Below are positions 14,786-33,447 of a DNA stretch of 48,799 nt, in pieces. Position 1 is the first letter of the stretch; each line of letters starts with the position of its first letter. A program made the translations under genes and the position numbers. Under the pieces are notes generated by a model. The model made no database searches and was not told the DNA's origin. It saw only the letters and a list, made by a program, of their open reading frames with translations. The stretch is from Oscillospiraceae bacterium. Lineage in GTDB: Bacteria > Bacillota > Clostridia > Oscillospirales > Oscillospiraceae. The stretch covers positions 1-48,799 of the forward strand of contig WQWC01000011.1 of NCBI GenBank assembly GCA_009785525.1, given 5' to 3'.

Positions 14786-14849
14786 AACGGCAAAATAGAA
14801 AAGCCCTCCCTATGGGACGGCATCACAAAACGGTAATAGGTTGTTCTAA

Positions 14850-14877
14850 GGACGGCGCAGCTTGCGCTACGCCGTCC
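14850..14877. terminator. Possible terminator hairpin between convergent genes
   Basis: GGACGGCG (14850-14857) pairs with CGCCGTCC (14870-14877), with 3 more pairs inside. No T run follows directly; the nearest is about 15 bases away on the plus strand. Position between convergent stop codons makes it a likely but weak terminator. Confidence 0.4.
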
Positions 14878-14895
14878 AGCTTTGATTAGCCTTTT

Positions 14896-15996: not shown

Positions 15997-16106
15997 AGTT
16001 AAACTCCCTATAAAAATTTTACATTAAACCTCTTGCGAATCTCCCGTAATCAAAATCCGTCCCGAAGGCGGATTCATTCCGCCACAGAGACTAACTCTGC
16101 TCCAAA

Positions 16107-16174
16107 TTCTTGCAAAACCCCGGGGCCCCCGGCGAATCATAGATTCGTTGGGGTGGGTCGCAGTTTTGCAAGAA
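16107..16174. repeat. Inverted repeat between the two enolase-superfamily genes
   Basis: A perfect 12-bp pair TTCTTGCAAAAC (16107-16118) and GTTTTGCAAGAA (16163-16174) encloses a GC-rich loop that itself has a small stem CGAATC-ATA-GATTCG. There is no T run for a clear terminator. It may be a relic of a small mobile element or a regulatory structure. Confidence 0.55.
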
Positions 16175-16179
16175 ATCTA

Positions 16180-17304: not shown

Positions 17305-17346
17305 AGCGTCCCTCCTCATATTGTTATTTTGTAATCACTATATCAC

Positions 17347-19717: not shown

Positions 19718-19753
19718 AAAAAATGCGGAGACTTCGTATGTGAAGTCTCCGCA
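19718..19753 (-). terminator. Terminator of the 13-kb reductive operon
   Basis: A perfect 12-bp stem, TGCGGAGACTTC (19724-19735) with GAAGTCTCCGCA (19742-19753), 6-base loop, and on the minus strand a run of six T (plus 19718-19723). It follows the fumarase beta stop by about 30 bases and marks the downstream end of the array. Confidence 0.93.
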
Positions 19754-19784: not shown

Positions 19785-20324
19785 TCAGCGTTTTCTGTCA
19801 TAGACGTCATTCCCGTCCGAGTCCAGAGCCACCACAACCGGTAGTTTCTCAACTTCCAGGCGTCTTATGGCCTCCGGGCCTAAGTCTTCAAAATCGACCA
19901 GCTCTACGGATTTCACGCACTCACTCATAAGGGCGGCGATGCCGCCGATGCCTGCGAAATACACTCCGCCGTGTTCTACAACCGATTTTTTCACAGCATC
20001 GTTGCGGGAGCCTTTTGCGATCATTACTTTCAGCCCTTTTGCAATAAGGTCTGGTGCAAAGCTATCCATCCTCCCCGCTGTTGTGGGGCCGATTGAGCCT
20101 ATAACCATACCGGGCTTTGTGGGCGAAGGTCCCGCGTAGAAAACAACATTCCCTTCAAAGTCAAACGGCATTTCTTCTCCCGCCGCAAGCATATCTGCCA
20201 TACGTTGGTGTGCGGCGTCGCGCGCTGTGTATATAGGTCCGGTGATGTAGCAAATTTCGCCGCATTTAAGGCTTTTTATCGTCTCATCGGAAAACGGTAT
20301 CGTTAATTCCCGAAACTCAGCCAT
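19785..20324 (-). CDS. fumB: Class I fumarate hydratase (or related hydro-lyase), beta subunit
   Basis: The smaller subunit of the two-subunit, [4Fe-4S]-dependent fumarase/tartrate-dehydratase family, interconverting fumarate and malate (or a related substrate). Family segments: CYITGPIYTARDAAHQRM near the N-terminus, YAGPSP, GSIGPTTAGRMD, and GIGGIAAL. The frame is open to 20405, but the first 27 residues would be read from a palindromic repeat; the ATG at 20324 has GGAGGA just upstream and gives the family N-terminus MAEFRELTIPF. About 179 residues. It is 181 bp after the alpha subunit, an unusually wide gap filled by repeat element B. Tartrate or mesaconate specificity cannot be excluded. 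Confidence 0.9.
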   Translation of the reverse strand: MAEFRELTIPFSDETIKSLKCGEICYITGPIYTARDAAHQRMADMLAAGEEMPFDFEGNVVFYAGPSPTKPGMVIGSIGPTTAGRMDSFAPDLIAKGLKVMIAKGSRNDAVKKSVVEHGGVYFAGIGGIAALMSECVKSVELVDFEDLGPEAIRRLEVEKLPVVVALDSDGNDVYDRKR

Positions 20325-20356
20325 AATGAATCCTCCATTATTCGATAAAATTTTTA

Positions 20357-20416
20357 TGTAGGGGACGATGGTAATCGTCCCGCTAAATACCGGGCGGCTT
20401 GCCATCCGCCCCTACG
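20357..20416. repeat. Intergenic palindromic element, copy B
   Basis: Outer ends TGTAGGGG (20357-20364) and CCCCTAC (20409-20415) face each other. Inside are two hairpins: GGGACGAT-GGTA-ATCGTCCC, and a second arm with GGGCGG and CCGCCC around CTTGCCAT. It sits between the fumarase alpha and beta genes, and the rest of the 181-bp gap (20417-20505) contains another GC-rich hairpin region (CGTGCC with GGCACG near 20468-20503). Confidence 0.85.
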
Positions 20417-20505
20417 TACAGATATTCAATCATATCTAATGCGCGCTGCGCCCGCAGGCGCGTTCTCCGTGCCAGTTTCGGCTTTGTTGGAGCGCCCGGC
20501 ACGTT

Positions 20506-21348
20506 TTAAAGAACAGTCTCTTCGTGACGGTTTGCATGGCAGGCGATGTTGACCGCCACCGGCAGACCCGCTATGTGGGTGGCATAAGTGTTGATATGCA
20601 CCGCCATTGCTGTGGTGATACCGCCTAAACCCGCAGGTCCTATGTTCATAGTAGCATTGATTTTTTCATGGAGTTCCGTCTCTAAATCCGCCCAATATGG
20701 ATCGGGATGCCGTGAGCCGAACGGCCGAAGTAATGCTTGTTTGGCCATTTTTGCACACAGCTCGAAGCTTCCGCCCACGCCCACGCCCACAACTATGGGG
20801 GGACAAGGGTTCGGCCCTGCCAGCCTTACCGTTTCCAGCACAAAATTCTTAACACACTCGATACCATCTCCAGGTACAAGCATTTTCAACCGGCTCTTAT
20901 TCTCACTGCCGAAACCCTTGGGTGAAACGGTAATTTTCAGGTTGTCTCCCGGGACAACTTCGTAATGTATAACGGCCGGAGTGTTGTCATTGGTATTGGT
21001 ACGATGTATAGGATCCGCCACGACAGATTTACGCAAATAGCCTTCGTCGTAGCCTTTTCGTACGCCTTCATGCACAGCCGCGGTCAAGTCCCCGCCAACA
21101 ACGTGTACATCCTGCCCCAGCTCTAAGAAGACTATCGTCATGCCGGTGTCCTGACAGATAGGCATATTGCGCTCAATCGCGACATCTTGATTTTTCAGCA
21201 TATCTTCTAAAACTTGTCGAGCGGTTCCCGTTTCCTCCTTGACAGCTTGTTCCATATATGCCCGCACATCGGGCGCCACAACTACACATGCTTTTATGCA
21301 TAGTTCGGCAACCGCGTCCGTAATCTTGCTAACATGAATCTCTTTCAT
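20506..21348 (-). CDS. fumA: Class I fumarate hydratase (or related hydro-lyase), alpha subunit
   Basis: The larger subunit of the heteromeric iron-sulfur fumarase, which carries the [4Fe-4S] cluster. Cysteines in MPICQDTGM (about 62-70), GPNPCPPI, and GGSFELCAKMAK are in the expected positions for the three cluster ligands. 280 residues, matching TtdA/FumA-alpha proteins. A purine-rich AAGGTGGT ribosome site precedes the ATG, 15 bp after the DUF4387 stop. In this operon fumarase would make fumarate from malate for the neighbouring fumarate-reductase-like subunits, or the reverse. The same fold serves tartrate dehydratase and mesaconase, so the substrate is an inference from context. Confidence 0.9.
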   Translation of the reverse strand: MKEIHVSKITDAVAELCIKACVVVAPDVRAYMEQAVKEETGTARQVLEDMLKNQDVAIERNMPICQDTGMTIVFLELGQDVHVVGGDLTAAVHEGVRKGYDEGYLRKSVVADPIHRTNTNDNTPAVIHYEVVPGDNLKITVSPKGFGSENKSRLKMLVPGDGIECVKNFVLETVRLAGPNPCPPIVVGVGVGGSFELCAKMAKQALLRPFGSRHPDPYWADLETELHEKINATMNIGPAGLGGITTAMAVHINTYATHIAGLPVAVNIACHANRHEETVL

Positions 21349-21363
21349 AATTACACCACCTTT

Positions 21364-21672
21364 TTAATAACTGAAGGTAAGCAGCGGTCCGTGCTGCTGC
21401 GCGCCGTAAACATCCTTTTCACCCAGCGCACCGGAGGCAAATGGGCGGACGATGGTGATTTTCACGGCTTTGCTGGGTGGGAAAGCTATGACAGAAAGCA
21501 CTTCAGACTCCGGCATGTTATACAGTTTTGCGAAAACGGCTTTTGTCATCACGTTTTTTGCCGCAAAATCTTCAAATACCGCCTGCTCTTTAAAAATGAT
21601 ATCGAAAGTAAGCTCGTAGGGCCCGGAGTTTTTACTGCGGATAACTGCCGCCACATCAATTAACTTGGTCAT
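21364..21672 (-). CDS. DUF4387 family protein
   Basis: 102 residues that match what I know of DUF4387: MTKLIDVAAVIRSKNSGPYE at the start and a C-terminal GAQQHGPLLTF. The family has no established function to my knowledge. It usually occurs beside AtuA/DUF1446-type proteins, and here the start codon overlaps the stop of the AtuA-family gene (ATGA), implying co-translation and probably a complex. The conserved RSKNSGP and a TFDI segment suggest a compact alpha/beta fold. A ribosome site GGGGGCG lies upstream. Located between the AtuA-like and fumarase genes of the reductive operon. Confidence 0.85.
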   Translation of the reverse strand: MTKLIDVAAVIRSKNSGPYELTFDIIFKEQAVFEDFAAKNVMTKAVFAKLYNMPESEVLSVIAFPPSKAVKITIVRPFASGALGEKDVYGAQQHGPLLTFSY

Positions 21673-23039
21673 AATATCGCCCCCTTGTCACATTGGTATA
21701 ATTGCGCAGGAAATAGCTCGCAAGGGTCGTCAACCTCCATCAGACAGTACAGGCTGAAAGCATAAACCACGCCGCCGCTGAAATCCGATGGTGAGAACGG
21801 GAACGCCAGGTTTCCCGCAGTGGCTATGCGCCCTTCGTAGCCATAATGAAGCAATGTGGAGCGGGCAAAAGCGCATATAGTGTCCGCATGGGCGGTGGTT
21901 TCAGCCACAGCTTCAATGATAATGGCCACCTCACAAGGCACGGGACCGGCCGCACCGTAAAAACTCGCGCCTGTCTGGCCGTAAACTTTGAAATCCAGGA
22001 AGAATTCTCCCAACTCTTCAAAATTGCTGGCTACACGTTCTTTAACAGCTTTCACGATGTCATCCATCTTGCTTATCATAATGGGGTCAGCGGTGGCGGC
22101 GAAAGACACGGTGCGATAACCTGCTTTGCGTGCCGCCTCCAGCTTGAGGGTATAGACATCATCCGGGATAAAGCGGCTGCCGCGTACAATGACGGTGCCC
22201 TCGCTGGCTTGCTCAAACGTTGTTTGGGTCAAATCCAACACTCCGCCGGGTCCGGGGAGCCGGGTGGGATTGCTTTTTTCATATAATGTATGGGCCGCGA
22301 TTGACGTGGCGGTGCATTTGCGTATTGGATCCAAGGTGGCAACTTCAAAGTGATCTTCGCGCAGATAGGCGAACATGCAGTCACTGCCGCTGCCGGGCGT
22401 TGCCGCGATGGCGGCACACTCCAAAATCTTGCCCATATGCAGTGCAAGCCCTGCGTCAAACCCCTCTATAACAGCCAGTGCGGCGAACACCGTGGGGTCA
22501 TACGCACGCCCGGTGACGATTACCTCTGCACCAGCTTTAAGTGCTTCAACCATCGGCTCGTGTCCCATTTGGGCTACGATATTAACACTGTCTTCAATAT
22601 CCTTCACAGTGGGTGCAGGCGCCGGGAAATATTCTCTCAGTTTCCCCTCGGCAAGCTTCTTTTTCACCACTTCCGGGTCAATCTGGGCGGAAATAACAGC
22701 CATTTTAAACGAAAGGCTCTTCTCCGCCGCGATTTCTTTGATAATCTCCACATTCCAGTCCAAATGACTGTCGGCACCGGCGCCACCGGCCGTGCCGATG
22801 ATGACGGGAATCTTCGCCTCAAGTGCTGCTGTCAGCATGAACTCTAAGTCCCGTTTCACAGCCCCGCGGTCGGTAAAGGACTTGCCGCTGCCCAAATAAT
22901 ACGGCCCGGGATCAGTGGAACCCGCGTCCACAGCTATCACATGAGGCTTTAGGGCCATACCCGCCTCAAAAGAGGACGCTGGGAATCCATAGCCCAAAAT
23001 GGCGGTGGGGGATAATACTCTATGTTCTTTCATAACCAT
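21669..23039 (-). CDS. Acyclic terpene utilization AtuA family protein (DUF1446)
   Basis: 456 residues with the family features: an N-terminal GYGFPASSFEAG, AVDAGSTDPGPYYLGSG (about 34-50) and IGTAGGAGADSHL (about 80-92), followed by the long conserved domain. AtuA-type proteins are named after a Pseudomonas gene for citronellol catabolism, but the biochemical role is not settled. Terpene degradation is unlikely in an anaerobe's C4-dicarboxylate operon. It is 13 bp behind the flavoprotein and overlaps the DUF4387 gene by 4 bp. The start could be the ATG at 23039 (AGGAGG, 4-base spacer) or at 23033 (10-base spacer). I infer a two-protein enzyme with DUF4387 acting on an organic acid or its CoA ester, low confidence. 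Confidence 0.82.
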   Translation of the reverse strand: MVMKEHRVLSPTAILGYGFPASSFEAGMALKPHVIAVDAGSTDPGPYYLGSGKSFTDRGAVKRDLEFMLTAALEAKIPVIIGTAGGAGADSHLDWNVEIIKEIAAEKSLSFKMAVISAQIDPEVVKKKLAEGKLREYFPAPAPTVKDIEDSVNIVAQMGHEPMVEALKAGAEVIVTGRAYDPTVFAALAVIEGFDAGLALHMGKILECAAIAATPGSGSDCMFAYLREDHFEVATLDPIRKCTATSIAAHTLYEKSNPTRLPGPGGVLDLTQTTFEQASEGTVIVRGSRFIPDDVYTLKLEAARKAGYRTVSFAATADPIMISKMDDIVKAVKERVASNFEELGEFFLDFKVYGQTGASFYGAAGPVPCEVAIIIEAVAETTAHADTICAFARSTLLHYGYEGRIATAGNLAFPFSPSDFSGGVVYAFSLYCLMEVDDPCELFPAQLYQCDKGAIL

Positions 23040-23052
23040 CTGTCCTCCTGAT

Positions 23053-24657
23053 TCAGTTTACTTCCCGCGTATAGTCCGGGAATAACTTAGGCGAACGTCT
23101 GTCTGTCTCAATACCGGCTTCTTTCAGCGCTTTGGAGTAGTCATACACATGCTCCAGCGACAGCTTTTTGCCTAATTTAACTTCGGGAACTTTTTTTGCG
23201 GCCTGCTGCCCGCAAAAACGGCCGAAGACGACAAAGTCCAATACAGAGTTGCCCAGCACACGATTGCGTCCATGGATGCCGCCTGATGCTTCACCGCCAA
23301 CGAACAGATTTTTTATTTTTGGCGTGGTAGCGTCAGCGTCAATTTCCATGCCGCCGTTTTGATAGTGTATCGTGGGATAAACAAGTACAGGTATTTCACG
23401 TACATCAATACCGTAATTCTTATACATGCCGTACACGGCGGGAATACTCTTTTGAATAAAACCCTTGCCGTTTATCATGTCAATCAGCGGTGTGTCCAGC
23501 CAAGCCCCGTAACCATTTGGTGTGGGTATGCCTCTATTTCTCTGGTTACATTCGCGGATAATGGCGGAAGCGGCCACGTCTCTCGTTTCCAGCGGATGCA
23601 CGAAAGCCTCGCCATCAATATTCAATAGCATAGCGCCGATGGCCCGTACCTTCTCCGTAACCAACGCACCGAAGAGCTGAACGGGATATGCCACACCGGT
23701 CGGGTGGTATTGTATGGTATCTTGATACAAAAGATTAGCGCCCGCGCGGTAAGCCATAATCAAACCATCCGCCGTTGCCCCGTAGTGGTTCGATGTGGGG
23801 AACCCTTGGTAGTGCAGTCTTCCCGCGCCGCCTGTTGCGATAATCACGGTTTTGCCTTTGGCAATTTTATATTCGCCTGTTTCCAAGTCTTTCAGCACCG
23901 CTCCGGCAGCGTTCCCGTTTTCATCCAAAAGCAAGTCCAAGGCGGCGGTAAACTCGATTACAGGAATTTCAAGATTCCGAACCTCGTCGCGCAACACACG
24001 CATGATTTCCATGCCGGTATAGTCCTTGCTGGCAAGCAGTCTTTTGCGCGATATGCCGCCGCCGCCGGTCGTGACCATAGTGCCGTCCGGTTCTTTATCG
24101 AACAGAACGCCCATGTTATTAAGCCACTCTATACAGCCCGGACCATCCATTACCAAGCGCTTCAAGAGTTCCGGCTTTGCCGCATAGTGGCCGCCGCCGA
24201 ACGCGTCAAGATAGTGTTGCATCGGCGAGTCGTTTTCTTTGGTCGCCGCCTGAATGCCGCCCTGGGCCATCATGCTGTTGGCGTCTCCCAGGCGCAGTTT
24301 CGTGACAATCAGTACGCTGGCCCCGGCCAGATGCGCTTCAACAGCCGCCGCTGCACCTGCACCGCCACCGCCTATAATCAGCACATCCGCCTCATAGTCT
24401 ACTTTATCCAAGTTGATATCTACATCATGGATGAGGCTGTTGGAGTTCAACAGATCCGCCAGCTCCTGCGGCGCTCTTTCGCCTTTATTCGGTCCGATGC
24501 CGATAGTATCGAAAGCATGATCCTTATAATCGGGATGAAACTCTCTCAGCAGGGCGTCTTTTTCCTCTGCGGTTAGTCTTCTCGGCTCCGTTTTAAGTCT
24601 TTCGGGCCGTGTGGCTTCCACTTTTTTTATAGATTCCAGCATTTGCTCGGTCAGCAT
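23053..24657 (-). CDS. frdA: Soluble fumarate-reductase-like flavoprotein subunit
   Basis: FAD-binding domain of the succinate dehydrogenase/fumarate reductase family. The dinucleotide motif is VLIIGGGGAGAAAA at 92-105. Active-site groups are all there: HPTG, the TE...R segment, ETRD (proton-transfer Arg), HYQNGG (His) and GRNRVLGNS (Arg). The histidine that binds FAD covalently in membrane Frd/Sdh is replaced (NSMMAQGG at 127-134), so FAD should be non-covalent. There is an extension of about 88 residues before the FAD motif; in usual FrdA the motif is near residue 10. 534 residues. No membrane-anchor genes are nearby. It follows the iron-sulfur subunit by 13 bp. Aspartate oxidase-like or other 2-enoate reduction is possible, but the paired Fe-S subunit favours fumarate reduction. 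Confidence 0.88.
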   Translation of the reverse strand: MLTEQMLESIKKVEATRPERLKTEPRRLTAEEKDALLREFHPDYKDHAFDTIGIGPNKGERAPQELADLLNSNSLIHDVDINLDKVDYEADVLIIGGGGAGAAAAVEAHLAGASVLIVTKLRLGDANSMMAQGGIQAATKENDSPMQHYLDAFGGGHYAAKPELLKRLVMDGPGCIEWLNNMGVLFDKEPDGTMVTTGGGGISRKRLLASKDYTGMEIMRVLRDEVRNLEIPVIEFTAALDLLLDENGNAAGAVLKDLETGEYKIAKGKTVIIATGGAGRLHYQGFPTSNHYGATADGLIMAYRAGANLLYQDTIQYHPTGVAYPVQLFGALVTEKVRAIGAMLLNIDGEAFVHPLETRDVAASAIIRECNQRNRGIPTPNGYGAWLDTPLIDMINGKGFIQKSIPAVYGMYKNYGIDVREIPVLVYPTIHYQNGGMEIDADATTPKIKNLFVGGEASGGIHGRNRVLGNSVLDFVVFGRFCGQQAAKKVPEVKLGKKLSLEHVYDYSKALKEAGIETDRRSPKLFPDYTREVN

Positions 24658-24670
24658 AAGTCATCCCCTC

Positions 24671-25345
24671 CTACTTTTCGATGTCCCTGGCATTGTACAG
24701 CTCTTTTATTTCATCCAGCGGTTTTGCAAGTAATTCTGCCATAATAGCGTCCAGTTCGCCATTGCGCACTGAAGCGGCTTTAACTTTCATGTGTTTTGCT
24801 TCCGGTTGTATGTATTTGCCTACAAGCCTTCTGGCAAGCAAGCCGACCATCGGGTGAGAAATCCCGGCTGGGCACCTAGAGGCGCAAATACCGCAAGACA
24901 CACAGTCGAACGATTCGTTAGCGCATTTCTCCAGCTCGTTGCGTTGGGCATAGGCGATGTACTGCATGACATTCAGTTCCTTTGAGCACGCTTTTGTACA
25001 CGCATTGCACCCGATGCAGGCATATATTTCAGGATAAAGCTGCATCATTAGCTGCTCTTCCGGTTTAACCGTTTCCATATCATATACCTTCTTCACGGTA
25101 GGGAAATAGGGCAAGGTGGCCACGTACATTCCATCCTGCACCTGAGTCTGGCACGCCAGGCAAGATTGCAGCGTGTTTGAGCCCGCGACCCTGTAAATAA
25201 TTGCGCACGCCCCGCAGAACCCGTAGCGGCACCCGCAGCCGCGCAACAGTTGATATCCGGCATATTCCATGGCCGTCATAATAGTCAAATCTGCCGGCAC
25301 GGAGTATCGTTTGCCGTAAAAATAAACATTTGCCATTTCCTGCAT
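24671..25345 (-). CDS. frdB: Fumarate-reductase-like iron-sulfur subunit
   Basis: An N-terminal plant-type [2Fe-2S] domain has the set CGCRYGFCGAC then SCLAC; two ferredoxin-type sets follow, CIGCNACTKAC and CVSCGICASRCP. This is the FrdB/SdhB plan with two [4Fe-4S] centres, similar to TfrB of methanogen thiol:fumarate reductase but without TfrB's C-terminal CCG (HdrB-like) domain; HdrB is a separate gene upstream. About 224 residues from the ATG at 25345. A TTG at 25369 is also open and overlaps the FlxA stop, but AAGGATGGTG fits the ATG better. It should wire electrons from the Hdr/Flx part to FrdA. Soluble, no membrane segment. Confidence 0.85.
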   Translation of the reverse strand: MQEMANVYFYGKRYSVPADLTIMTAMEYAGYQLLRGCGCRYGFCGACAIIYRVAGSNTLQSCLACQTQVQDGMYVATLPYFPTVKKVYDMETVKPEEQLMMQLYPEIYACIGCNACTKACSKELNVMQYIAYAQRNELEKCANESFDCVSCGICASRCPAGISHPMVGLLARRLVGKYIQPEAKHMKVKAASVRNGELDAIMAELLAKPLDEIKELYNARDIEK

Positions 25346-25365
25346 TTTAATCACACCATCCTTTA

Positions 25366-26205
25366 TCAATACTCGTCCGGCAATTCGTCGATTTCATCAC
25401 ATCGGAATACCGGTCCGTCTTTGCAGACATACTTGGACCCGATGTTGCATCGTCCGCATTTGCCGATGCCGCATTTCATGCGGAGTTCCAGAGTGGTAAA
25501 TACCTGTTCTTTTTTGAATCCCATTTCCATCAGCGAGGCCAATGTAAGCTTGATCATAATCGGCGGGCCGCAGACCAGCGCCGTTTTGTCGGTGCTTATA
25601 TTCAGCTCTTTCGGATATGTTGTGACAAATCCGACATGCCCGTCCCAGCCGGACTGCTCTCTGTCTATGGTTAAGTGGACGTTAGTGTTTGGCTGCGCAC
25701 GCCAAATTTCCTCAATTTCTTTCAGGTAAACCAAGTCGTCCTTAGATCGGGCGCCGTATACAATGTCTACTGACCCGTACTTATCCCTGTTGTCAAAGAC
25801 ATATCGCACCACAGACCCAACCGGCGCGAGGCCGATACCTCCGGCGATAATCAGCAGATTCTGACCCGGCAGCACCGTATCGACCGGGAAGGCATTGCCG
25901 TATGGGCCGCGGATTGTCACCTCACTGCCCACTTCCATCGCGTGAAGATAATCGGTCAGCGTGCCGCATTGTTTGATGCTGAACAGCAGACCGTCATCAT
26001 TTGTCGGTGACGACGTGATGGAAAACATAGCCTCTCCGACTCCGGGGACGGACAACATTGCGCATTGTCCCGGCATGTGGTCAAACGGTTTTTTCCCGTC
26101 AGCGCCAGTGATTTTAAACGTTTTAACATCTGACGTTTCTGTCCTGATATCGGTGATGACGCCTATCTGCGGGATCAACAGATCCGGTGTTTTACACATC
26201 TGCAT
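25366..26205 (-). CDS. flxA: FlxA-like FAD/NAD(P)-binding electron-input subunit
   Basis: Ferredoxin-reductase-type oxidoreductase of 279 residues, like FlxA, HydG (sulfhydrogenase gamma) and dihydroorotate-dehydrogenase PyrK. An N-terminal flavin domain has FSITSSP, the NAD(P) domain has AGGIGLAPVGSVV (about 130-142) and CGPPIMIK, and a C-terminal [2Fe-2S] set CGIGKCGRCNIGSKYVC binds the cluster. It takes electrons from NADH (or NADPH) and passes them to the Fe-S chain of the Hdr complex. The start ATG overlaps the end of the preceding subunit by 14 bp. With the next three genes it makes the Flx module. Confidence 0.88.
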   Translation of the reverse strand: MQMCKTPDLLIPQIGVITDIRTETSDVKTFKITGADGKKPFDHMPGQCAMLSVPGVGEAMFSITSSPTNDDGLLFSIKQCGTLTDYLHAMEVGSEVTIRGPYGNAFPVDTVLPGQNLLIIAGGIGLAPVGSVVRYVFDNRDKYGSVDIVYGARSKDDLVYLKEIEEIWRAQPNTNVHLTIDREQSGWDGHVGFVTTYPKELNISTDKTALVCGPPIMIKLTLASLMEMGFKKEQVFTTLELRMKCGIGKCGRCNIGSKYVCKDGPVFRCDEIDELPDEY

Positions 26206-27220
26206 TCACCCCCAAACTTTTGATGACTTTTACAATATTCAGTGAAGCCGGGCATTTGTTCACGCATCTTCCGCAGCCCACACAGGAATACTCACCATCG
26301 TTCTTGTCGGGGTAGTAAACCAATTTGTGCATAAACCGCTGGCGAAACCGCTCTTTCTGTGTCTTGCGCGGGTTTCCGTGCGCCATCAGGGTAAAGTCCG
26401 AATACATGCATGAATCCCAGCAGCGGTAGCGCTTGACGCATTCTCCGGCATCGAAGTCTTTAATGTCGTAACACTGGCAAGTCGGGCAGATGAAAGTGCA
26501 CGTTCCGCAAGCGAGGCAGGTTTGATACAAAGAATCCCACTGTGGCGCGTCGAACAGTTCAATCAGCCGTTCGGCCTTGAATCGATCCAGCGGTAAGCCG
26601 GAGTTGTACGGCAATGCGTCTATCTTTTGCCGGATATCTTTTTGCTGCGCAGTTACGATATCATCTGCCGCAGATTCTAACATGCTTGAGACGATTTCCG
26701 TCAGCTTTTTGCCTTTTTCCGTTTTCGCTTCCCAGTACAAGTTGCCATCCGCCATCCAAGCTACCACGTCTCCTGCGGGATTTGCCGCATCAATGCTGAA
26801 TGGCTTGCAGAAACAGGTCGCTTGCGGTTCGGCGCAGGCCATCGAGACTATCGTGCCATGCTTTCGGCGCGCCTCGTAAAATTTGTCAACAGGGTCGGAT
26901 AAATACACTTTGTCTAAGATTTCGATTCCCTTAACATCGCAGCCTTTGACGCCGAACACTACGAATGGCGTGTCCGCGAACGGCTCCGCTTCAAGCTGGA
27001 TTTTCTTACCCGCTAAAGCAGCCGTGTAAAGTGTCTCGGACTGAGGCAGGAAGAAATCCTTCGGGGACTTGACTGTCTTCAGCGTATCCAGGTCAACATC
27101 CGCGTCCTCACTCCACGGGGCGTAATTCACGGTCCCTTTGCGAATCGGCAGATAGAGATCCGCAGATTTCGCTATCACGGCAAATAAGGCAGGCAAATTG
27201 TTCTTCGCTATTTTCAGCAC
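26192..27220 (-). CDS. FlxB-like 4Fe-4S subunit (sulfhydrogenase beta-like)
   Basis: 342 residues related to hydrogenase/sulfur-reductase beta subunits and anaerobic sulfite reductase A. The N-terminal half has the FGVKGCDVKGI segment and MACAEPQATCFC; the C-terminal half has two ferredoxin clusters, CLACGTCTFICPTC and CVGCGRCVNKCP. It transfers electrons between the FlxA flavin subunit and HdrA. GTG start behind AAAGGGGG, 5 bp after the previous stop; it overlaps flxA by 14 bp. The B/C naming follows order and size and is not certain. Confidence 0.82.
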   Translation of the reverse strand: MLKIAKNNLPALFAVIAKSADLYLPIRKGTVNYAPWSEDADVDLDTLKTVKSPKDFFLPQSETLYTAALAGKKIQLEAEPFADTPFVVFGVKGCDVKGIEILDKVYLSDPVDKFYEARRKHGTIVSMACAEPQATCFCKPFSIDAANPAGDVVAWMADGNLYWEAKTEKGKKLTEIVSSMLESAADDIVTAQQKDIRQKIDALPYNSGLPLDRFKAERLIELFDAPQWDSLYQTCLACGTCTFICPTCQCYDIKDFDAGECVKRYRCWDSCMYSDFTLMAHGNPRKTQKERFRQRFMHKLVYYPDKNDGEYSCVGCGRCVNKCPASLNIVKVIKSLGVNADV

Positions 27221-27225
27221 ATTGA

Positions 27226-28104
27226 TTACCCCCTTTCATATACGACGCTTGGGTCAGCGTCAGTATCCGCGTCATAATCTGTCAGAGGGCCGGGCGTTTC
27301 CGCGTCATCGCCGGCCTGGAACTCGCCGTATAGTTCGTTGATGTCTTTAATCATTTTCCTATTCAGCAGATGCAGGTCAATAGCCTGCGGGCATACGCGG
27401 CTGCATTCGCCGCAATCGGTACATCGTCCGGCCACATGATATGCGCGGATGATGTGGAACATCTGCTCTTCAAAACTTGTGACATTCGCCTTTTGCTCTG
27501 TATCGTACTTGCCGCTGTCAAAGACGCATTTTTTGCAGTTACACGCAGGACAAACATTGCGGCAGGCGTTGCAACGTATGCAACGGGAGAGTTGATTCTG
27601 CCAGAATCCAAACCGCTCATCCGGAGACATTTTTTCAACGTCGGAGACTTGTTCAAAACGATCTTCCTTCTCGCGGGTTTGGATGTCCTCTCCGATCAAT
27701 TCGTCAAAGACTTTATGCTCAGTTTTGGTGCAGACTTTGCAGCGTTCCAGCAATCCGATCTCCTGCATTTCATCAACCTCTGCGTTACCCTCACAGCCCA
27801 CGCCGATAATCCACGCCTTGTCGCGGGAAACTCGGTTTTCTTTCGTCAGCTGATTAAAGCTGTATGTATCGCACGGCTTCAAGAATACCAGCGTTTTGCC
27901 GTCCTGTTTATTGGCTTCCACCATATACCCGCTCAAATTAGCGGCGCAGAATCTGTCATAGACCAAGTCGTCCAATTCATGTTCGGCGGTGAAAAACGCA
28001 GGTTCCGGATTGTACGGGAAGTCGCCTTTTTTCCAGCCCAAGACACGTTGGACTGCTCCGCTCGTGAGCAATTCTTTCGCACGGATTCTCATTCGCTCTT
28101 GCAT
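27226..28104 (-). CDS. FlxC-like 4Fe-4S subunit
   Basis: 292 residues, paralogous in plan to the following gene: an N-terminal alpha/beta domain with FLKPCDTYSFNQL and IGVGCEGNAE, then two ferredoxin sets, CIRCNACRNVCPACNC and CTDCGECSRVCP, and an acidic C-terminal tail rich in Asp. The tail may be a docking segment. The ATG at 28104 overlaps the MvhD-like gene by 16 bp and has GGAGG 7 bases upstream. Same electron-transfer role as its neighbour. It is tightly packed in the operon (5 bp to the next start). Confidence 0.82.
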   Translation of the reverse strand: MQERMRIRAKELLTSGAVQRVLGWKKGDFPYNPEPAFFTAEHELDDLVYDRFCAANLSGYMVEANKQDGKTLVFLKPCDTYSFNQLTKENRVSRDKAWIIGVGCEGNAEVDEMQEIGLLERCKVCTKTEHKVFDELIGEDIQTREKEDRFEQVSDVEKMSPDERFGFWQNQLSRCIRCNACRNVCPACNCKKCVFDSGKYDTEQKANVTSFEEQMFHIIRAYHVAGRCTDCGECSRVCPQAIDLHLLNRKMIKDINELYGEFQAGDDAETPGPLTDYDADTDADPSVVYERG

Positions 28105-28532
28105 CGCAGATCCTCCAATCTCACGTTTTCGCCCAGCTCATGGATTGTTTCCACGAATTTGTTCATCGTCGCGGCAAACTTCGTGCCCTCAGCCGCTGAA
28201 ACCCACTCCAGATGAGTGCGGCCTTTTTCGATGCCGAGATAATCCAGCAACGAATACAGCAGCGTGATGCGCCGTCTGGTGTAATAGTTTCCGGTACTGT
28301 AATGGCAGTCTCCGGGATGACAGCCGCATATGATGACCCCATCTGCGCCTTTCTGGAATGCCCGCAGCGCAAACAGCGGATTCACCCGGCAGGAACACGG
28401 GACTTTTATAATCTTCACCTCCGCCGGATAGGCCAAACGGCTGGTTCCGGCCAAGTCAGCGCCCGCGTAGGAACACCAGTTACAGCAAAAGGCCACGATC
28501 AGAGGCTTAAATTCTTTATTAGCTACCGACAT
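28089..28532 (-). CDS. mvhD: MvhD/FlxD-type [2Fe-2S] linker subunit
   Basis: The delta subunit that hands electrons to HdrA in methanogen Mvh-Hdr and bacterial Flx-Hdr complexes. Conserved cysteines: FCCNWCSYAGADLAG near the N-terminus (about 15-19), PCSCRVN, and ICGCHPGDCHY; the family signature GADGVIICGCHPGDCHY is clear. About 147 residues. The frame is open to 28631 inside hdrA, but the ATG at 28532 has GGAGGTG upstream and matches family N-termini; it overlaps the hdrA stop by 10 bp. Its presence next to HdrA makes a true Flx-Hdr complex much more likely than a chance cluster. Confidence 0.9.
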   Translation of the reverse strand: MSVANKEFKPLIVAFCCNWCSYAGADLAGTSRLAYPAEVKIIKVPCSCRVNPLFALRAFQKGADGVIICGCHPGDCHYSTGNYYTRRRITLLYSLLDYLGIEKGRTHLEWVSAAEGTKFAATMNKFVETIHELGENVRLEDLRCKSE

Positions 28533-30508
28533 ATCGCATCCACCTCCGCTTGAATTTGCCTGTTTGAGAAGCCTTGCAGATCCATCGCGCCTGACGGGCA
28601 AGTCACCGCGCAAGCCCCGCAACCTTGGCAAAGCGCTTTATTCACCTGCGCCACACGCCGTACTTCTCTCACGCCATGGTCGTTAACTTCGCAATCCTCG
28701 TAGGAAATCGCGCCGTAAGGGCATACGTTTTCGCATACGGAACATCCGTTGCAGTAAAGCTCATCCGGCTTGGCGGTGCAAGGATTACTCATTAGCTTGT
28801 CTTTTACCAGCAATCCAATGACTTTCGCCGCTGCCGCCCCGGCCTGTGCGACCGTTTCAGGGATATCTTTCGGCCCCTGGCACACACCGGAGAGGAATAC
28901 ACCGGCTGTCGGACTTTCCACCGGTCGCAGTTTTGGGTGCGCTTCCGTCATAAAATTGTTTGTATCAATACTGGCTGTCAGCATAGTTGCAATACTCTTG
29001 GCCGATTCAACAGGTTCAATAGCTGTTGCCAATACGACCATATCTGTTTGCAGTTCCATCTTTTTGTTGTCCAGCATATCGACAGCCTGTATCTGAAGAT
29101 GGTCACCGTTGTCAATCACTTTGCCGACCTGGCCTTTGATATACCGCACGCCGTATTCATCTTCCGCCCTGCGGTAGAACTCGTCAAAAGCTTTACCGGG
29201 TGTGCGGACGTCGATATAAAAGATATTCACCTCAATATCAGGATATTTCTCTTTAATCAACATCGCATGTTTAGCCGTGTACATGCAGCAGATTTTTGAG
29301 CAGTAAGCCTTTCCGCGCTGTGTGACGTCACGCGAGCCTACGCATTGTATAAACGTCACGCTCTTAGGTTTGCGCTTGTCGGACAGCCGAGTCAAGGCCC
29401 CGCCTGTCGGGCCGGCCGCGTTGGTCAGCCGTTCAAATTCTAACGATGTAATTACGTCTGGGCTGCTGTCATAGCTATACTCACCAAATTTATCCAAAGA
29501 AACAGGCTCATATCCCGTTGCCATTACAACAGCGCCGTATTTGCGCTCCACGAGTTCGTCTTCTTGCTCGAAGTTGATAGCCTTCGGCGCACAGACTGTT
29601 TCGCATAATCCGCATTTGCCGGTTTTGAATTTTAGGCAAGCCTCCCGGTCGATCACCGGAACGTTCGGAACCGCCTGTGCAAACGGAGTGTAGATAGCTG
29701 GACGGGTGCAAAGTCCCTGGTCAAATTCGCTCGGCGACTTTTTAGACGGGCATTTTTCCGAACACGCGCCGCAGCCTGTGCATTTCTCAAAATCCACGCT
29801 TCTGGCCTTTTTGCGGATGGTAACGGTGAAATCCCCAACAAAGCCTTCCACTTTATCGACTTGGCTATATGTATATAGCGTGATGTTTTCATGCGCCGAC
29901 GCATCCACCATTTTTGGCGTCAGAATACATGCCGCGCAGTCCAGCGTTGGGAATGTTTTATCCAGCTGCGCCATTTTCCCGCCGATACTAGGCGTGGACT
30001 CAACAATATCAACCTCAAACCCGGCGTCGGCTATATCCAGCGCCGTTTGTATTCCGGCAATGCCGCCGCCTATTACTAAGGCGCGTTTTGTGACTGGGCT
30101 TTCATCCGGGAACAGTGGACTGTTTAATTGCACTTTCGCAATGGCTGCGCGAGTTAGCGTCAACGCTTTTTGTGTCGCCTCAGCTTTATCTTTATGTATC
30201 CAGGAACAATGTTCGCGTATATTCGCAATTTCCACCATATACGGGTTCAACCCCGCCTTTTCCGCCGCTTTACGGAATGTTGCCTCATGCATCCGTGGTG
30301 AGCAGGAACATATTACGACACCTGAAAGATTATGCTCTTTCACGGCATTTATTATCATGTTCTGTCCGGCCTCCGAACACATATACGGGTACTCGGCGGC
30401 ATGAACCACACCGGGTTCGGGTTTTGCCATTTCAACAATTTCAGCCACATCCACGGTCCCGGCTATATTGGTACCGCAATGACAGACAAAGACACCTATT
30501 CTCTGCAC
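28523..30508 (-). CDS. hdrA: Heterodisulfide-reductase-like subunit A (FAD, multiple 4Fe-4S)
   Basis: HdrA holds the FAD at which electron bifurcation occurs in methanogens. The 661-residue protein has the full layout: an N-terminal domain (VFVCHCGTNIAG; CSCSPRMHEATFRKA, about 90-105), FAD domain with GGGIAGIQTALDIADAG (about 148-164) and the inserted cysteine segment TLDCAACILTP, two internal clusters (CTGCGACSEKCP and CGLCETVC), and two C-terminal ferredoxin clusters (CNGCSVCENVCP and CQGCGACAVTCP). GTG start behind GGGAGGG. Flanked by hdrC and the MvhD-like gene. Bacterial HdrA proteins may bifurcate or simply transfer electrons; the sequence alone does not decide. Confidence 0.93.
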   Translation of the reverse strand: MQRIGVFVCHCGTNIAGTVDVAEIVEMAKPEPGVVHAAEYPYMCSEAGQNMIINAVKEHNLSGVVICSCSPRMHEATFRKAAEKAGLNPYMVEIANIREHCSWIHKDKAEATQKALTLTRAAIAKVQLNSPLFPDESPVTKRALVIGGGIAGIQTALDIADAGFEVDIVESTPSIGGKMAQLDKTFPTLDCAACILTPKMVDASAHENITLYTYSQVDKVEGFVGDFTVTIRKKARSVDFEKCTGCGACSEKCPSKKSPSEFDQGLCTRPAIYTPFAQAVPNVPVIDREACLKFKTGKCGLCETVCAPKAINFEQEDELVERKYGAVVMATGYEPVSLDKFGEYSYDSSPDVITSLEFERLTNAAGPTGGALTRLSDKRKPKSVTFIQCVGSRDVTQRGKAYCSKICCMYTAKHAMLIKEKYPDIEVNIFYIDVRTPGKAFDEFYRRAEDEYGVRYIKGQVGKVIDNGDHLQIQAVDMLDNKKMELQTDMVVLATAIEPVESAKSIATMLTASIDTNNFMTEAHPKLRPVESPTAGVFLSGVCQGPKDIPETVAQAGAAAAKVIGLLVKDKLMSNPCTAKPDELYCNGCSVCENVCPYGAISYEDCEVNDHGVREVRRVAQVNKALCQGCGACAVTCPSGAMDLQGFSNRQIQAEVDAICR

Positions 30509-30528
30509 GTTATTTCCCTCCCTTGCCC

Positions 30529-30921
30529 TTATTTCGCATATTTCCGAAATGCGCTGGCTAAAAGCTGCTGCGGCAATTCCGGGTCTAATAACTCAGGCAC
30601 ATCATCCGGCGAAAGATAATTTTCGCCCTGCTGTCTGATAACCATTAATCTTGCCGCTTCGATGATCTGCGCCGGTTTTACATCCCGCGGACAGCGTTCC
30701 ACGCAGGCGAAGCATGAAATGCATTTCCAGATAGATTTTGAACTTAACATCGCGTCAATATCGCCGCCGCGCAGATATGAGACAAACTGATGCGGCCTGA
30801 TATCCATAGAATCATAAGAAGGGCAGGAGGCGGAGCATTTTCCGCATTTCATGCATTTCCTGTCTTCCGCGCCGCTGATTGTACGTATTTGCTCTTGCTG
30901 ATAATCATTATTGCCATGCAT
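30529..30921 (-). CDS. hdrC: Heterodisulfide-reductase-like subunit C (two 4Fe-4S)
   Basis: 130-residue iron-sulfur protein that links HdrA and HdrB. Two [4Fe-4S] sets: CMKCGKCSASCP (about 23-34) and CISCFACVERCP (about 67-78), followed by helices. Soluble, with no membrane part, so it is the HdrC type and not HdrE/DsrM-linked. AAAGGAGG precedes the ATG. 13 bp after hdrB and 20 bp before hdrA. Confidence 0.9.
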   Translation of the reverse strand: MHGNNDYQQEQIRTISGAEDRKCMKCGKCSASCPSYDSMDIRPHQFVSYLRGGDIDAMLSSKSIWKCISCFACVERCPRDVKPAQIIEAARLMVIRQQGENYLSPDDVPELLDPELPQQLLASAFRKYAK

Positions 30922-30934
30922 GACGTATCCTCCT

Positions 30935-31729
30935 TTACTCCTCTTTTATTCCCAGCGCTTCCGCCAAGAACTCTGTAAAATAAACAGTTGGCAGAGTCTC
31001 GCCGGTTTTTTTGTCCATGTTATACAAACACAGCGGGCAGGCGGTTATCAACACTTCCGCGCCTTTGGATAGAGCATTGTCAGCAATTTTCCCCGCCATC
31101 TCTTCGGCCATCTCTTTTTCCTTTAATGAGATATATCCGCCGCAGCATTCGTTGCGATATGGATACACCACAGGCTCCGCACCGATGGCTTTGATGAAGT
31201 CTTCAAAAATAGTCGGGTTCTCTGGGTCATCGAATTGCATGACGCTGCTGGGACGCAACAGCATACAGCCGTAATACGCGCCAATTTTGCGTCCGGCAAG
31301 CGGGTTTTTCACTTTCGCCGCCAGATTGTCGAAACCGACTTGATCTCTCAAGACCTCCAGATAATGAAGAACGTTTGCTTCACCATTATATGTATAGGGT
31401 TCTTCTTCCTGGGCAATGTAATTGTTCACCTTTGTACGCAAGTCTTTGTCCTGGCGCATATCTTCGTTTACACGTTTCAAAACGTGATGACAAGCGGAAC
31501 ACAATGTTACTATGCTCTGCCCTTTTTCATCTGCCGCGTGCAAGGCACGGACAGCGGGCAACTTTGTGGCGATTTCATCGGTACCCATTGGATAAACCGC
31601 CCCACAGCACTGCCACGCTTCCACCTCCTCAAGAGTAAAACCCAGCGCCTGCGCACACAGACGGGCATTTTTGTCAAGTTCTTTTGCTTTTGTCTTTAAT
31701 GTACAGCCCGGATAATAGCTGTAGACCAT
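30935..31729 (-). CDS. hdrB: Heterodisulfide-reductase-like subunit B (CCG domains)
   Basis: HdrB carries two CCG domains that hold the unusual non-cubane [4Fe-4S] clusters where heterodisulfide is reduced in methanogens. The first set is C9...C41-C42-G with CSACHH later; the second has CMLLRPS, ECCGGYIS, and ACPLCLYN, all intact. 264 residues. Because a clostridium should not have CoM-S-S-CoB, the physiological disulfide (if any) is unknown; electrons might pass instead to the FrdAB-like pair. It starts with ATG behind AAGGAGG, 49 bp after the symporter gene and tightly linked to hdrC. Confidence 0.92.
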   Translation of the reverse strand: MVYSYYPGCTLKTKAKELDKNARLCAQALGFTLEEVEAWQCCGAVYPMGTDEIATKLPAVRALHAADEKGQSIVTLCSACHHVLKRVNEDMRQDKDLRTKVNNYIAQEEEPYTYNGEANVLHYLEVLRDQVGFDNLAAKVKNPLAGRKIGAYYGCMLLRPSSVMQFDDPENPTIFEDFIKAIGAEPVVYPYRNECCGGYISLKEKEMAEEMAGKIADNALSKGAEVLITACPLCLYNMDKKTGETLPTVYFTEFLAEALGIKEE

Positions 31730-31778
31730 TTGGGGACCCTCCTTCCGGCTTGGTATAATAAATTAATATGTATTTGCG

Positions 31779-33047
31779 CTAACTGCCTCCCGCAGATTGA
31801 TCAACTTCTTCTTTCTTTGGCTTTCCCACGATCTCTTTGTCCACAAAGCGTTGCACGATAGCGCAAACCGCAAAGTCGCCGCCTATGTTGCAAACGCCCC
31901 TGGCCGGACCCGGTATCAAGCGGTCAAATCCGAGAAGCAATACAACAGCTTCCGGCGGCAGACCCAGCATTCCAAGTACCGGAACAAGCATAACGACAGC
32001 CGCGCCGGGTACGCCCGCAGCGCCGAGAGATCCTAGCGTGGCGGCTACGACAATCATAACAATTGACATTGGCTCCAACGCTATTCCGTGGACGTTAGCA
32101 ACGAATACGGTTGCTATTCCCAGATATGCTGCCGTGCCGTCCATATTTACGACGATGCCGTATGGTACAACGAAATTTCTTACCCTGTCTTTTATTCCCA
32201 TCTTACGGGCCACGTCCATTGCCACCGGCAAAGTCGCATAGCTAGAAGCTGTTGCCCAAACAAACAGTGTAGACTCTTTTGAGTATTTAAGGAAGTGCCT
32301 CATTGACATCCCGCCAATAACCTTGGCGAAAAGAAACACCTGCACGCCAAGATGTATTACTAATGTCGCGGCAAGGCACGCGGCGAGAAACGGGGCAAAC
32401 TCCAAGAGTGACGCAAGCCCCTGTCTGCCGACAAGCCAAGCCATAATTCCCATAACCCCGATAGGCATGAACCCCATTACATACGACAACACTTTTTGTA
32501 TAACATCGCTGATAGCCGTGAAAAAATCTATAAGCATTGAACTGTGCTTCTTGTTCGGAATTGCGGCTATGGCTATGCCCACAAAGATGGAAAACGCCAG
32601 AACTTGGAGCAAATCCGCCCTCGTCAGAGCTGTAAATATATTGTCCGGTACTATGCCTAAGATAACGTCCAATACGCCCGGCGCCGCCGCTACCGCACCA
32701 AGCTCCCACGCTTCATCCGGAATTATGCCGGAACCCACGTTAAACAGCGAGGCAAAACCTAATCCGATGGCAATGGCGAGTATCGAACTGATTACAAACA
32801 TAATAGTGGAGATTGCGCCCATTTTTCCAACGCTTTTGCCGCCTACATCGCCCACCGCCACAATAATCATGCTCATTACAAGCGGCAGAACAACCATGGA
32901 TACAAGCCGAACCATAAGTGTACCCAAAAACTGCAAATACGTTGCCGTTTCGCCAAGAATCAACCCAAGTACAATTCCCAGCACAAACCCGCCTAATACC
33001 TTATAAAATGTGGATACCTTCTTGTATGCCCTCCAAATGCTGCCCAT
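31779..33047 (-). CDS. DAACS-family dicarboxylate/amino-acid:cation symporter
   Basis: About 422 residues with eight or so hydrophobic segments and re-entrant loops of the GltP/DctA/SstT family. Signature stretches: a serine/alanine-rich loop (WATASSYATLPVA), the TM7 motif NMDGTAAY, and the C-terminal motif DRLIPGPARGVCNIGGD. It takes up C4-dicarboxylates, glutamate/aspartate or similar acids with Na+ or H+. The frame starts at a GTG (33056), but the ATG at 33047 is better spaced from AAAGGGTG. It stands first in the array, 49 bp before hdrB, and I infer uptake of a C4 acid such as malate, fumarate or aspartate for the downstream enzymes. Succinate/fumarate antiport is usually done by other families. 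Confidence 0.88.
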   Translation of the reverse strand: MGSIWRAYKKVSTFYKVLGGFVLGIVLGLILGETATYLQFLGTLMVRLVSMVVLPLVMSMIIVAVGDVGGKSVGKMGAISTIMFVISSILAIAIGLGFASLFNVGSGIIPDEAWELGAVAAAPGVLDVILGIVPDNIFTALTRADLLQVLAFSIFVGIAIAAIPNKKHSSMLIDFFTAISDVIQKVLSYVMGFMPIGVMGIMAWLVGRQGLASLLEFAPFLAACLAATLVIHLGVQVFLFAKVIGGMSMRHFLKYSKESTLFVWATASSYATLPVAMDVARKMGIKDRVRNFVVPYGIVVNMDGTAAYLGIATVFVANVHGIALEPMSIVMIVVAATLGSLGAAGVPGAAVVMLVPVLGMLGLPPEAVVLLLGFDRLIPGPARGVCNIGGDFAVCAIVQRFVDKEIVGKPKKEEVDQSAGGS

Positions 33048-33056
33048 CAAAGTCAC

Positions 33057-33447
33057 ACCCTTTCGCTAATTAAGCCGGATACAGCAGGCCCGTTCCAAAA
33101 TCTATGCATTATGCTTGGTCAGGTTGCTTCAGAACAGGCTCTATTCTTGCTCCCTACACATGTATGCAATATGAACAAAGTGTTCTTGCGCACGAGTGTA
33201 GTTTGACAGGAATAATAGTTGGTTAAGTATCGCATAGTGCGGGGGGTATTTCAAGACGTATAATCCACAAAATTTTCAATAAAATCAACGACTAAGCATA
33301 GTTAAGTTGCCCAAAAACCAATACGCCCTTATCTGCGGCGATAAACGTGCGAATAAAAGCAAAATATTTGTTAAAATTGACTTATGCAAGGCAACTCTTG
33401 CACAATTGCAGACATGCTTGCATTAGTTGAAGAACCTGATAGAGTGC
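33057..33447. other. Intergenic region upstream of the symporter-Hdr operon
   Basis: No gene seen. A candidate minus-strand promoter lies at 33226-33254 (given separately), which would leave a 170-base leader. A TGCAAG/CTTGCA inverted repeat at 33385-33402, with a further CTTGCAT half site near 33417, could be a regulator site. The leader contains no riboswitch that I recognise. Confidence 0.5.
33226..33254 (-). promoter_or_regulatory. Candidate promoter of the 13-kb operon
   Basis: On the minus strand TTGAAA (plus 33249-33254), 17-bp spacer, GATACT (33226-33231). It is about 180 bp before the symporter start. No other position in the gap has both hexamers with normal spacing by my reading. 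Confidence 0.4.

Follow-up and report, generated by a model that had tools for sequence, protein, structure and literature searches.

A candidate soluble NADH-dependent fumarate reductase on a putative Flx-Hdr bifurcation module in an Oscillospiraceae genome

The window analysed here is a stretch of 48,799 nucleotides from contig WQWC01000011.1 of an uncultured, anaerobic Oscillospiraceae bacterium. Its minus strand carries genes for HdrABC, FlxABCD, a fumarate reductase-like pair (FrdBA) and a class I fumarase (FumAB). We propose that these genes encode a soluble NADH-dependent fumarate reductase on a Flx-Hdr bifurcation engine, a reading to which we give a probability of roughly 0.6 from sequence comparison. 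NADH-dependent fumarate reduction by a soluble enzyme is the likely part of this reading, and electron bifurcation is a plausible part. Gene content, gene order, co-inheritance, cofactor ligands and catalytic residues are read directly from the genomes compared.

Gene order and conservation of the operon

Fourteen genes, all on the minus strand between 33056 and 19785, form a single apparent unit. From 5' to 3' they encode an SDF-family symporter, HdrB, HdrC, HdrA, FlxD, FlxC, FlxB, FlxA, FrdB, FrdA, an AtuA family protein, a DUF4387 protein, FumA and FumB. Most neighbouring genes overlap or lie at most 20 bp apart. Two gaps are wider: about 49 bp separate the symporter from HdrB, and FumB follows FumA after 100 or 181 bp, depending on the FumB start chosen. 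The initial annotation of this DNA gave the location and strand correctly, and its gene identities agree with the NCBIfam and Pfam families found at each place. It counted 13 genes, one too few, since separate alpha and beta genes make up the class I fumarase. Its description of junctions as mostly overlapping or under 21 bp apart applies to all but these two wider gaps.

To follow the arrangement in other genomes, contigs were scanned by pattern with a seven-sequence FrdA alignment as query. At least 594 stretches matched. In at least 571 of them an FrdA relative is encoded (E 1e-3 or better); the best 80 were fetched with their flanks. The order HdrB-HdrC-HdrA-FlxD-FlxC-FlxB-FlxA-FrdB-FrdA is kept in all 58 of these with at least 7.3 kb upstream, including the seven colinear FlxABCD-HdrABC subunits. 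All 70 loci with at least 1.5 kb upstream are compatible with it, and the remaining 10 are too short to judge. A fumAB pair lies within the locus in 55 of the 69 with at least 2.5 kb downstream. Since the order is common to so many relatives, chance grouping of the nine genes is excluded. The nine-gene core HdrBCA-FlxDCBA-FrdBA is thus not unique to this genome, and its absence from related genomes, which would have spoken against a coupled system, was not what we found.

Carriers of the operon include Blautia, Dorea, Mediterraneibacter, [Clostridium] asparagiforme, and Oscillospiraceae and Synergistaceae records. A close FrdA (62-75% identity) occurs in six genomes among 39 relatives chosen by kinship. 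Among named records, the nearest is L041, a metagenome-assembled Oscillospiraceae genome whose FrdA is 74% identical. In the nearest relative (L033), FumAB follows FrdA directly, without AtuA-DUF4387, and is 80-81% identical to that of the window. Because the operon occurs in named isolated species (Blautia, Dorea, [Clostridium] asparagiforme), the proposal is directly testable.

The coupling hypothesis has already been proposed for another bacterium and is hence not new. A 'succinate operon' that combines fumarate hydratase, Flx-Hdr and fumarate reductase is described for Pseudoclostridium thermosuccinogenes in the accessible text of a 2020 paper, which also cites a 2019 preprint (10.20944/preprints201912.0288.v1) on a possibly bifurcating fumarate reductase (PMC7282089). 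In this succinate producer, the operon was reportedly about 4-fold up at low CO2, not significantly for every subunit. CRISPRi is also reported for the species (PMC9044749). As in the window, fumarase, a seven-gene Flx-Hdr set and FrdAB share one operon and coupling to ferredoxin is proposed; the likeness is one of described gene content, not of sequence. The P. thermosuccinogenes operon (CDQ83_RS03315-RS03365) differs in having its fumarase at the opposite end, by locus numbers. The same text leaves AtuA-DUF4387 and an SDF symporter unmentioned and suggests a hypothetical protein as transporter. The initial annotation knew of no characterised complex of this kind; the idea itself was already in print, and no biochemical proof of it appeared in the literature searched. 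Added here are the breadth and modularity of FrdBA, the reading of HdrB and FrdB as a split TfrB, the link to AtuA-DUF4387 and a caution about Blautia luti.

Predicted electron path and the residues behind it

The proposed path begins at FlxA (25366..26205), which has an FAD- and NAD(P)H-binding region and a DHODB-type Fe-S site (NAD_binding_1, FAD_binding_6, DHODB_Fe-S_bind). NADH would deliver a hydride to this subunit. Electrons would then pass through FlxB (26192..27220), FlxC (27226..28104) and FlxD (28089..28532) to the FAD of HdrA (28523..30508). There, one electron would go to ferredoxin and the other through HdrC (30529..30921) and HdrB (30935..31729) to FrdB (24671..25369) and the FAD of FrdA (23053..24657), where fumarate would be reduced to succinate. 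FumAB would form fumarate from malate, and the symporter may carry dicarboxylates or glutamate. We infer a physical complex with direct HdrB-FrdB transfer, ferredoxin as the low-potential acceptor and fumarate as the substrate.

The net reaction would be 2 NADH + fumarate + oxidised ferredoxin to 2 NAD + succinate + reduced ferredoxin. Fumarate has a standard potential of +33 mV, NADH of -320 mV and ferredoxin of -420 to -500 mV. From these values the bifurcating reaction would be exergonic, with a dG0' of about -49 to -33 kJ/mol. If the reading is true, succinate formation saves energy without a membrane fumarate reductase, and the fermentation balances of succinate-forming carriers need recalculating.

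The Flx subunits match their expected families. FlxB is a sulfhydrogenase beta or AsrA-like Fe-S subunit by NCBIfam and Pfam. FlxC is an Fe-S subunit by Pfam. Its C-terminal half is similar to the beta subunits of F420-dependent formate dehydrogenase in Fdh-Hdr complexes (PDB chains 9t1s_M, 7bkb_E and 8rvu_E), as would suit a subunit that relays electrons to FlxD. FlxD belongs to the MvhD/FlpD family (Pfam FlpD, 180.8 bits); its open reading frame (ORF) as called begins at 28631, with the ATG at 28532 the likelier start. The same seven subunit types, by name, make up the FlxABCD-HdrABC of Desulfovibrio vulgaris (Ramos et al. 2015, as cited elsewhere). Compared with that system, the window unit adds FrdBA and fumarase, and it would use fumarate instead of a disulfide as its high-potential acceptor. 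The HdrABC-MvhAGD and Fdh-Hdr complexes of methanogens (5odc, 8rvu, 7bkb, 9sfi) share a full-length HdrA homologue, an HdrB homologue and an FdhB-like counterpart of FlxC. In the window, an NADH module replaces their hydrogenase or formate dehydrogenase, and FrdBA stands on the acceptor side.

HdrA bears on whether the unit bifurcates at all. NADH to fumarate alone is strongly exergonic by the potentials above, and bifurcation cannot be read from gene context, so Flx-Hdr might just pass NADH electrons to FrdAB and leave ferredoxin unreduced. The HdrA residues argue against such a plain wire. The protein is a full-length flavoprotein, aligning with 5odc chain A over residues 3-659 (712 bits). 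Its E359 and K413 align with E356 and K409 of Methanothermococcus thermolithotrophicus HdrA (5odc), a pair near flavin N5 that the accessible text of one paper proposes to tell bifurcating from non-bifurcating HdrA (PMC12054007). The pair is kept in all 58 clade I proteins and in all 13 further HdrA proteins whose match was sufficiently long. The sixteen cysteines of the HdrA ferredoxin motifs also align with those of 5odc. A non-bifurcating wire is therefore unlikely in our estimate.

FrdA points to fumarate as the substrate of the proposed reductase. It is an FrdA-like flavoprotein of the FAD_binding_2 superfamily by family matches, structure alignment and residue conservation. Alignment to E. 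coli FrdA (1kf6, 2b76) identifies seven residues of the catalytic His/Thr/Glu/Arg set (H318, T334, E335, R338, R359, H431 and R466), whose roles we take from the E. coli literature; all 80 relatives keep them. N127 stands at the position of the covalent-FAD histidine, and asparagine is found there in all 80. E. coli FrdA without this histidine keeps fumarate reduction and loses succinate oxidation, so an asparagine here would fit a one-way reductase. At its N-terminus the protein is extended by 88 residues. Its similarity to SdhA/FrdA models and structures stops near residue 503 of 534, so that it lacks the C-terminal part found in classical FrdA. L-aspartate oxidase is a poor fit, with 255.8 bits to the NadB model against a cut-off of 452.75, and a distinct NadB is encoded on contig C15 of the source genome (479.6 bits).

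FrdB, whose start is uncertain, has one [2Fe-2S] and two four-cysteine [4Fe-4S] motifs by family matches and cysteine conservation. The active site of the flavoprotein is alike in enzymes of the complex II type, such as E. coli FrdABCD and MFR SdhABE; the latter has the CCG protein SdhE as a partner. In contrast to these enzymes, the window unit has no covalent-FAD histidine, lacks the C-terminal FrdA part and has two four-cysteine motifs in FrdB in place of the [3Fe-4S] pattern. Nor was a membrane anchor found. The source genome, 96% complete, has no match to Sdh_cyt (PF01127) or Fumarate_red_C (PF02300), other anchor families not being searched, which agrees with the soluble enzyme of the initial annotation and sets the unit apart from a membrane quinol:fumarate reductase.

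HdrC has two [4Fe-4S] motifs (Pfam Fer4_8; eight cysteines at 23-33 and 67-77). HdrB has two CCG domains (two Pfam CCG stretches, with HdrB relatives in the PDB), and all ten CCG cluster cysteines are kept in 58 of 58 relatives. The survival of both motifs would also suit a two-step thiol shuttle. In such a scheme, Flx-HdrABC reduces a low-molecular or protein disulfide at HdrB, bifurcating to ferredoxin, and FrdAB oxidises the thiols and reduces fumarate in the manner of TfrAB. The top NCBIfam models of the Frd pair point the same way, though far under their cut-offs (TfrA, 305.1 against 718 for FrdA; TfrB, 41.7 against 385 for FrdB). TfrAB is soluble and uses no quinone. The TfrB of methanogens is an FrdB-like half joined to a CCG half, and the CCG part is the one that handles thiols. 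The window FrdB aligns best to positions 15-94 of the TfrB model, which has 488 positions, and contains no CCG domain. No CCG match was found in the source genome outside this HdrB, which leaves FrdAB by itself with no evident site for thiols, and we consider the shuttle improbable.

The comparison with TfrAB made in the initial annotation needs adjusting for FrdB, which lacks the HdrB-like half of TfrB. That half is supplied, if at all, by the separate HdrB. Because FrdB lacks it and HdrB is a protein of its own, the two may act as a split TfrB. For the proposed reductase we favour direct HdrC-HdrB-FrdB transfer, since HdrB and HdrC recur as neighbours of FrdBA in the loci described below.

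FrdBA in other settings and the AtuA-DUF4387 insertion

The 80 best relatives suggested an obligate linkage of FrdBA to Flx-Hdr, which was rejected after sampling farther relatives. A search of 398 genomes of the phylum gave 39 further FrdA loci from 38 genomes above 700 bits, with the next match at 294 bits. These proteins are 51-60% identical to the window FrdA, and so the sample holds no further clade I member. Full Hdr and Flx sets occur, reordered, in 5 of the 39 loci, four with FrdBA at the front and one in which FrdBA comes last and HdrC precedes HdrB. HdrA without a close FlxA or FlxB is found in 11 loci, HdrC-HdrB without HdrA in 4 and AtuA-DUF4387 beside FrdA in 1. Because the surroundings differ so much, FrdBA behaves as a module with HdrB/HdrC as its recurrent partner. 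A quick 67-row tree requires at least three changes in the full Flx-Hdr label without L033 and L201 (four with them), and gain and loss cannot be told apart. These two loci, labelled 'no Hdr', sit on truncated contigs, and L033 carries FlxC-B-A.

We tentatively suggest that FrdBA is a soluble fumarate-reducing plug-in wired to HdrBC in various ways in anaerobic Firmicutes. The noncubane clusters of HdrB would relay electrons to FrdB, as in a split TfrB, and inputs would come from FlxABCD, from an HdrA variant with an extra oxidoreductase domain or from others. We rate this broader idea below even odds. If it is true, many gut Clostridia would hold a family of soluble bifurcating fumarate reductases that link the formation of succinate to ferredoxin reduction, and their calculated energy yields would rise.

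Several individual loci show the range of settings. In L198, L200, L207 and L212, HdrC-HdrB lies directly 5' of FrdB-FrdA, with no HdrA match in the fetched flanks; the L207 HdrB matches the SdhE model with 173 bits against a cut-off of 500. L197, one of the loci with HdrA and no close FlxA or FlxB, has an HdrA-like protein of 1092 aa (12284-15562) in an operon with HdrCBA and FrdBA. Its extra pyridine-nucleotide oxidoreductase domain, of thioredoxin-reductase or GltD type, makes it a possible alternative NAD(P)H input. Pyruvate carboxylase stands immediately 5' of FrdBA in L195 (8991-14792), with no Hdr match nearby. FrdBA adjoins FumC in L210 and has FumAB beside it in many distant loci. These neighbours fit succinate formation. 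A NapC/NirT-type cytochrome c protein 5' of FrdBA in L208 (7354-10945) suggests a different electron donor. In L152 (7656-11479), FrdBA of about 51% identity adjoins an MmgE/PrpD-family protein and possibly acts on another acid.

In the window itself, an AtuA family protein (21669..23039, Pfam AtuA) and a DUF4387 protein (21364..21672, by Pfam) are inserted between FrdA and FumA relative to the other operons. FumA (20506..21348) belongs to the FumA/TtdA family of class I fumarase alpha subunits (NF004885, 398 bits, over cut-off). FumB (19785..20405, likely start 20324) belongs to the FumA C-terminus/TtdB family of beta subunits (TIGR00723 over cut-off; Fumerase_C). Neither AtuA nor DUF4387 lies next to FrdA in any of the 80 fetched relatives, whose single AtuA match (35%) is about 8.4 kb beyond FrdA in L045. 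Of the 39 kinship-chosen relatives, 9 were found to have a DUF4387, and all 9 belong to the same genus. They keep AtuA-DUF4387 beside genes of glutamate (methylaspartate) fermentation: in six of their loci a methylaspartate ammonia-lyase gene stands 5' of the pair, on the same strand (with four ORFs between in L187), and in the other three a contig edge stands beside DUF4387. Literature on methylaspartate or mesaconate gave no mention of DUF4387 among the matches listed, and a search for AtuA and DUF4387 themselves gave, among the matches listed, mainly Portuguese-language papers on unrelated subjects.

This association raises the possibility that FrdA serves another pathway, such as that of mesaconate. 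The source genome has its own glmS-glmL-glmE-ammonia-lyase cluster on contig C2 without AtuA-DUF4387, and the sole DUF4387 found in the genome is the one in this operon. Another lineage also has the pair beside an FrdA paralogue and a PrpD-family protein. We nevertheless think a different substrate very unlikely: the fumarate-type active site is shared by all 80 relatives, none with AtuA or DUF4387 beside FrdA, and L033 has FumAB in that place. The most economical explanation is a move of the pair into the fumarate-reductase operon, which would tie the operon to glutamate or mesaconate metabolism in this organism.

In that other lineage (L155:6176-11189), AtuA-DUF4387-FrdA is followed, without an FrdB match, by the PrpD-family protein, and a GntR regulator stands upstream. 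This FrdA is a second copy in its genome (G130), possibly with another substrate. A protein of about 310 aa (L186:10044-10976, L227:5966-6901) adjoins DUF4387 in eight of the nine relatives' loci. It has no Pfam match; NCBIfam was checked for the L186 copy. In the source genome it is placed after methylaspartate ammonia-lyase. This protein and AtuA-DUF4387 together may supply a step that is missing from glutamate fermentation.

Counter-evidence and surroundings

Several findings weigh against the proposed bifurcating fumarate reductase. HdrB keeps a complete disulfide-reductase-type CCG site, with which a thiol intermediate is possible, and the AtuA-DUF4387 pair may point to a different substrate pathway here. 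No Hdr lies within the fetched flanks of 18 of the 39 distant loci, four of them with less than 3.2 kb upstream; FrdBA may thus be fed from elsewhere, and Flx-Hdr is not required. A search of the 96% complete genome gave no RnfD/NqrB-type gene, and of nine matches to the RnfC model the one over cut-off belongs to an RnfC2-MetV-MetF type cluster. B. luti has a second SdhB/SdhA pair (L228:2572-5362) with an adjacent weak Sdh_cyt match below cut-off. Finally, no purified or laboratory-tested complex was found in the full texts searched, among which subscription papers are largely missing.

A membrane Rnf was considered from the RnfC match and rejected, given the type of the cluster and the missing RnfD-type gene. 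The cluster (G000:C27:5952-9422, L192) is of the RnfC2-MetV-MetF methylenetetrahydrofolate reductase type. A HydABC-type hydrogenase is also present. Since no RnfD/NqrB-type gene was found, reduced ferredoxin, if made, would go to other enzymes, for example these two.

B. luti shows methyl viologen:fumarate activity and strong frdAB transcription, and the published scheme assumes an NADH-dependent enzyme, according to the accessible text of PMC12773636. Strain MSK.16.34 carries the Flx-Hdr-Frd-Fum operon (L099). Because of the second SdhA/SdhB pair, the activity is not assignable to the operon, and this physiology was rejected as proof of the operon's function. In the same text, the energy balance does not separate the Sdh-type pair from the Flx-Hdr-Frd operon. 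A weak anchor match occurs in two of six named genomes searched (B. luti and B. glucerasea), with none in the other four. [Clostridium] asparagiforme has a single FrdA-like match at E 1e-30 or better and no Sdh_cyt match, so that no second Sdh/Frd locus was found in this cultivable carrier.

The first gene of the unit encodes an SDF-family symporter of the C4-dicarboxylate/glutamate type (31779..33056, Pfam SDF 331.7 bits). Its top NCBIfam models are DctA and GltP, both under cut-off, and none of the 126 loci compared (87 + 39) has an SDF symporter match in its flanks. A promoter-like site lies 5' of this gene on the minus strand (33226..33254; 9/12 by consensus scan, extended -10 with TG), which is weak evidence. 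About 30 bp past the final stop codon begins a terminator-like hairpin, also on the minus strand (19724..19753; 12 pairs, 7 GC, tail TTTTTT). The scans gave no excess over shuffled sequence (12 against 16.1 promoter-like and 17 against 16.3 terminator-like sites), and so the two sites are only compatible with a single unit. An Rfam search of the window gave no match. Elsewhere in the window, two neighbouring MR_MLE enolase-superfamily proteins lie on the same strand as the operon (14896-17319). On the plus strand, 9599-14785 encodes a protein of 1728 aa with S-layer homology, DUF11 and Listeria-Bacteroides repeat domains.

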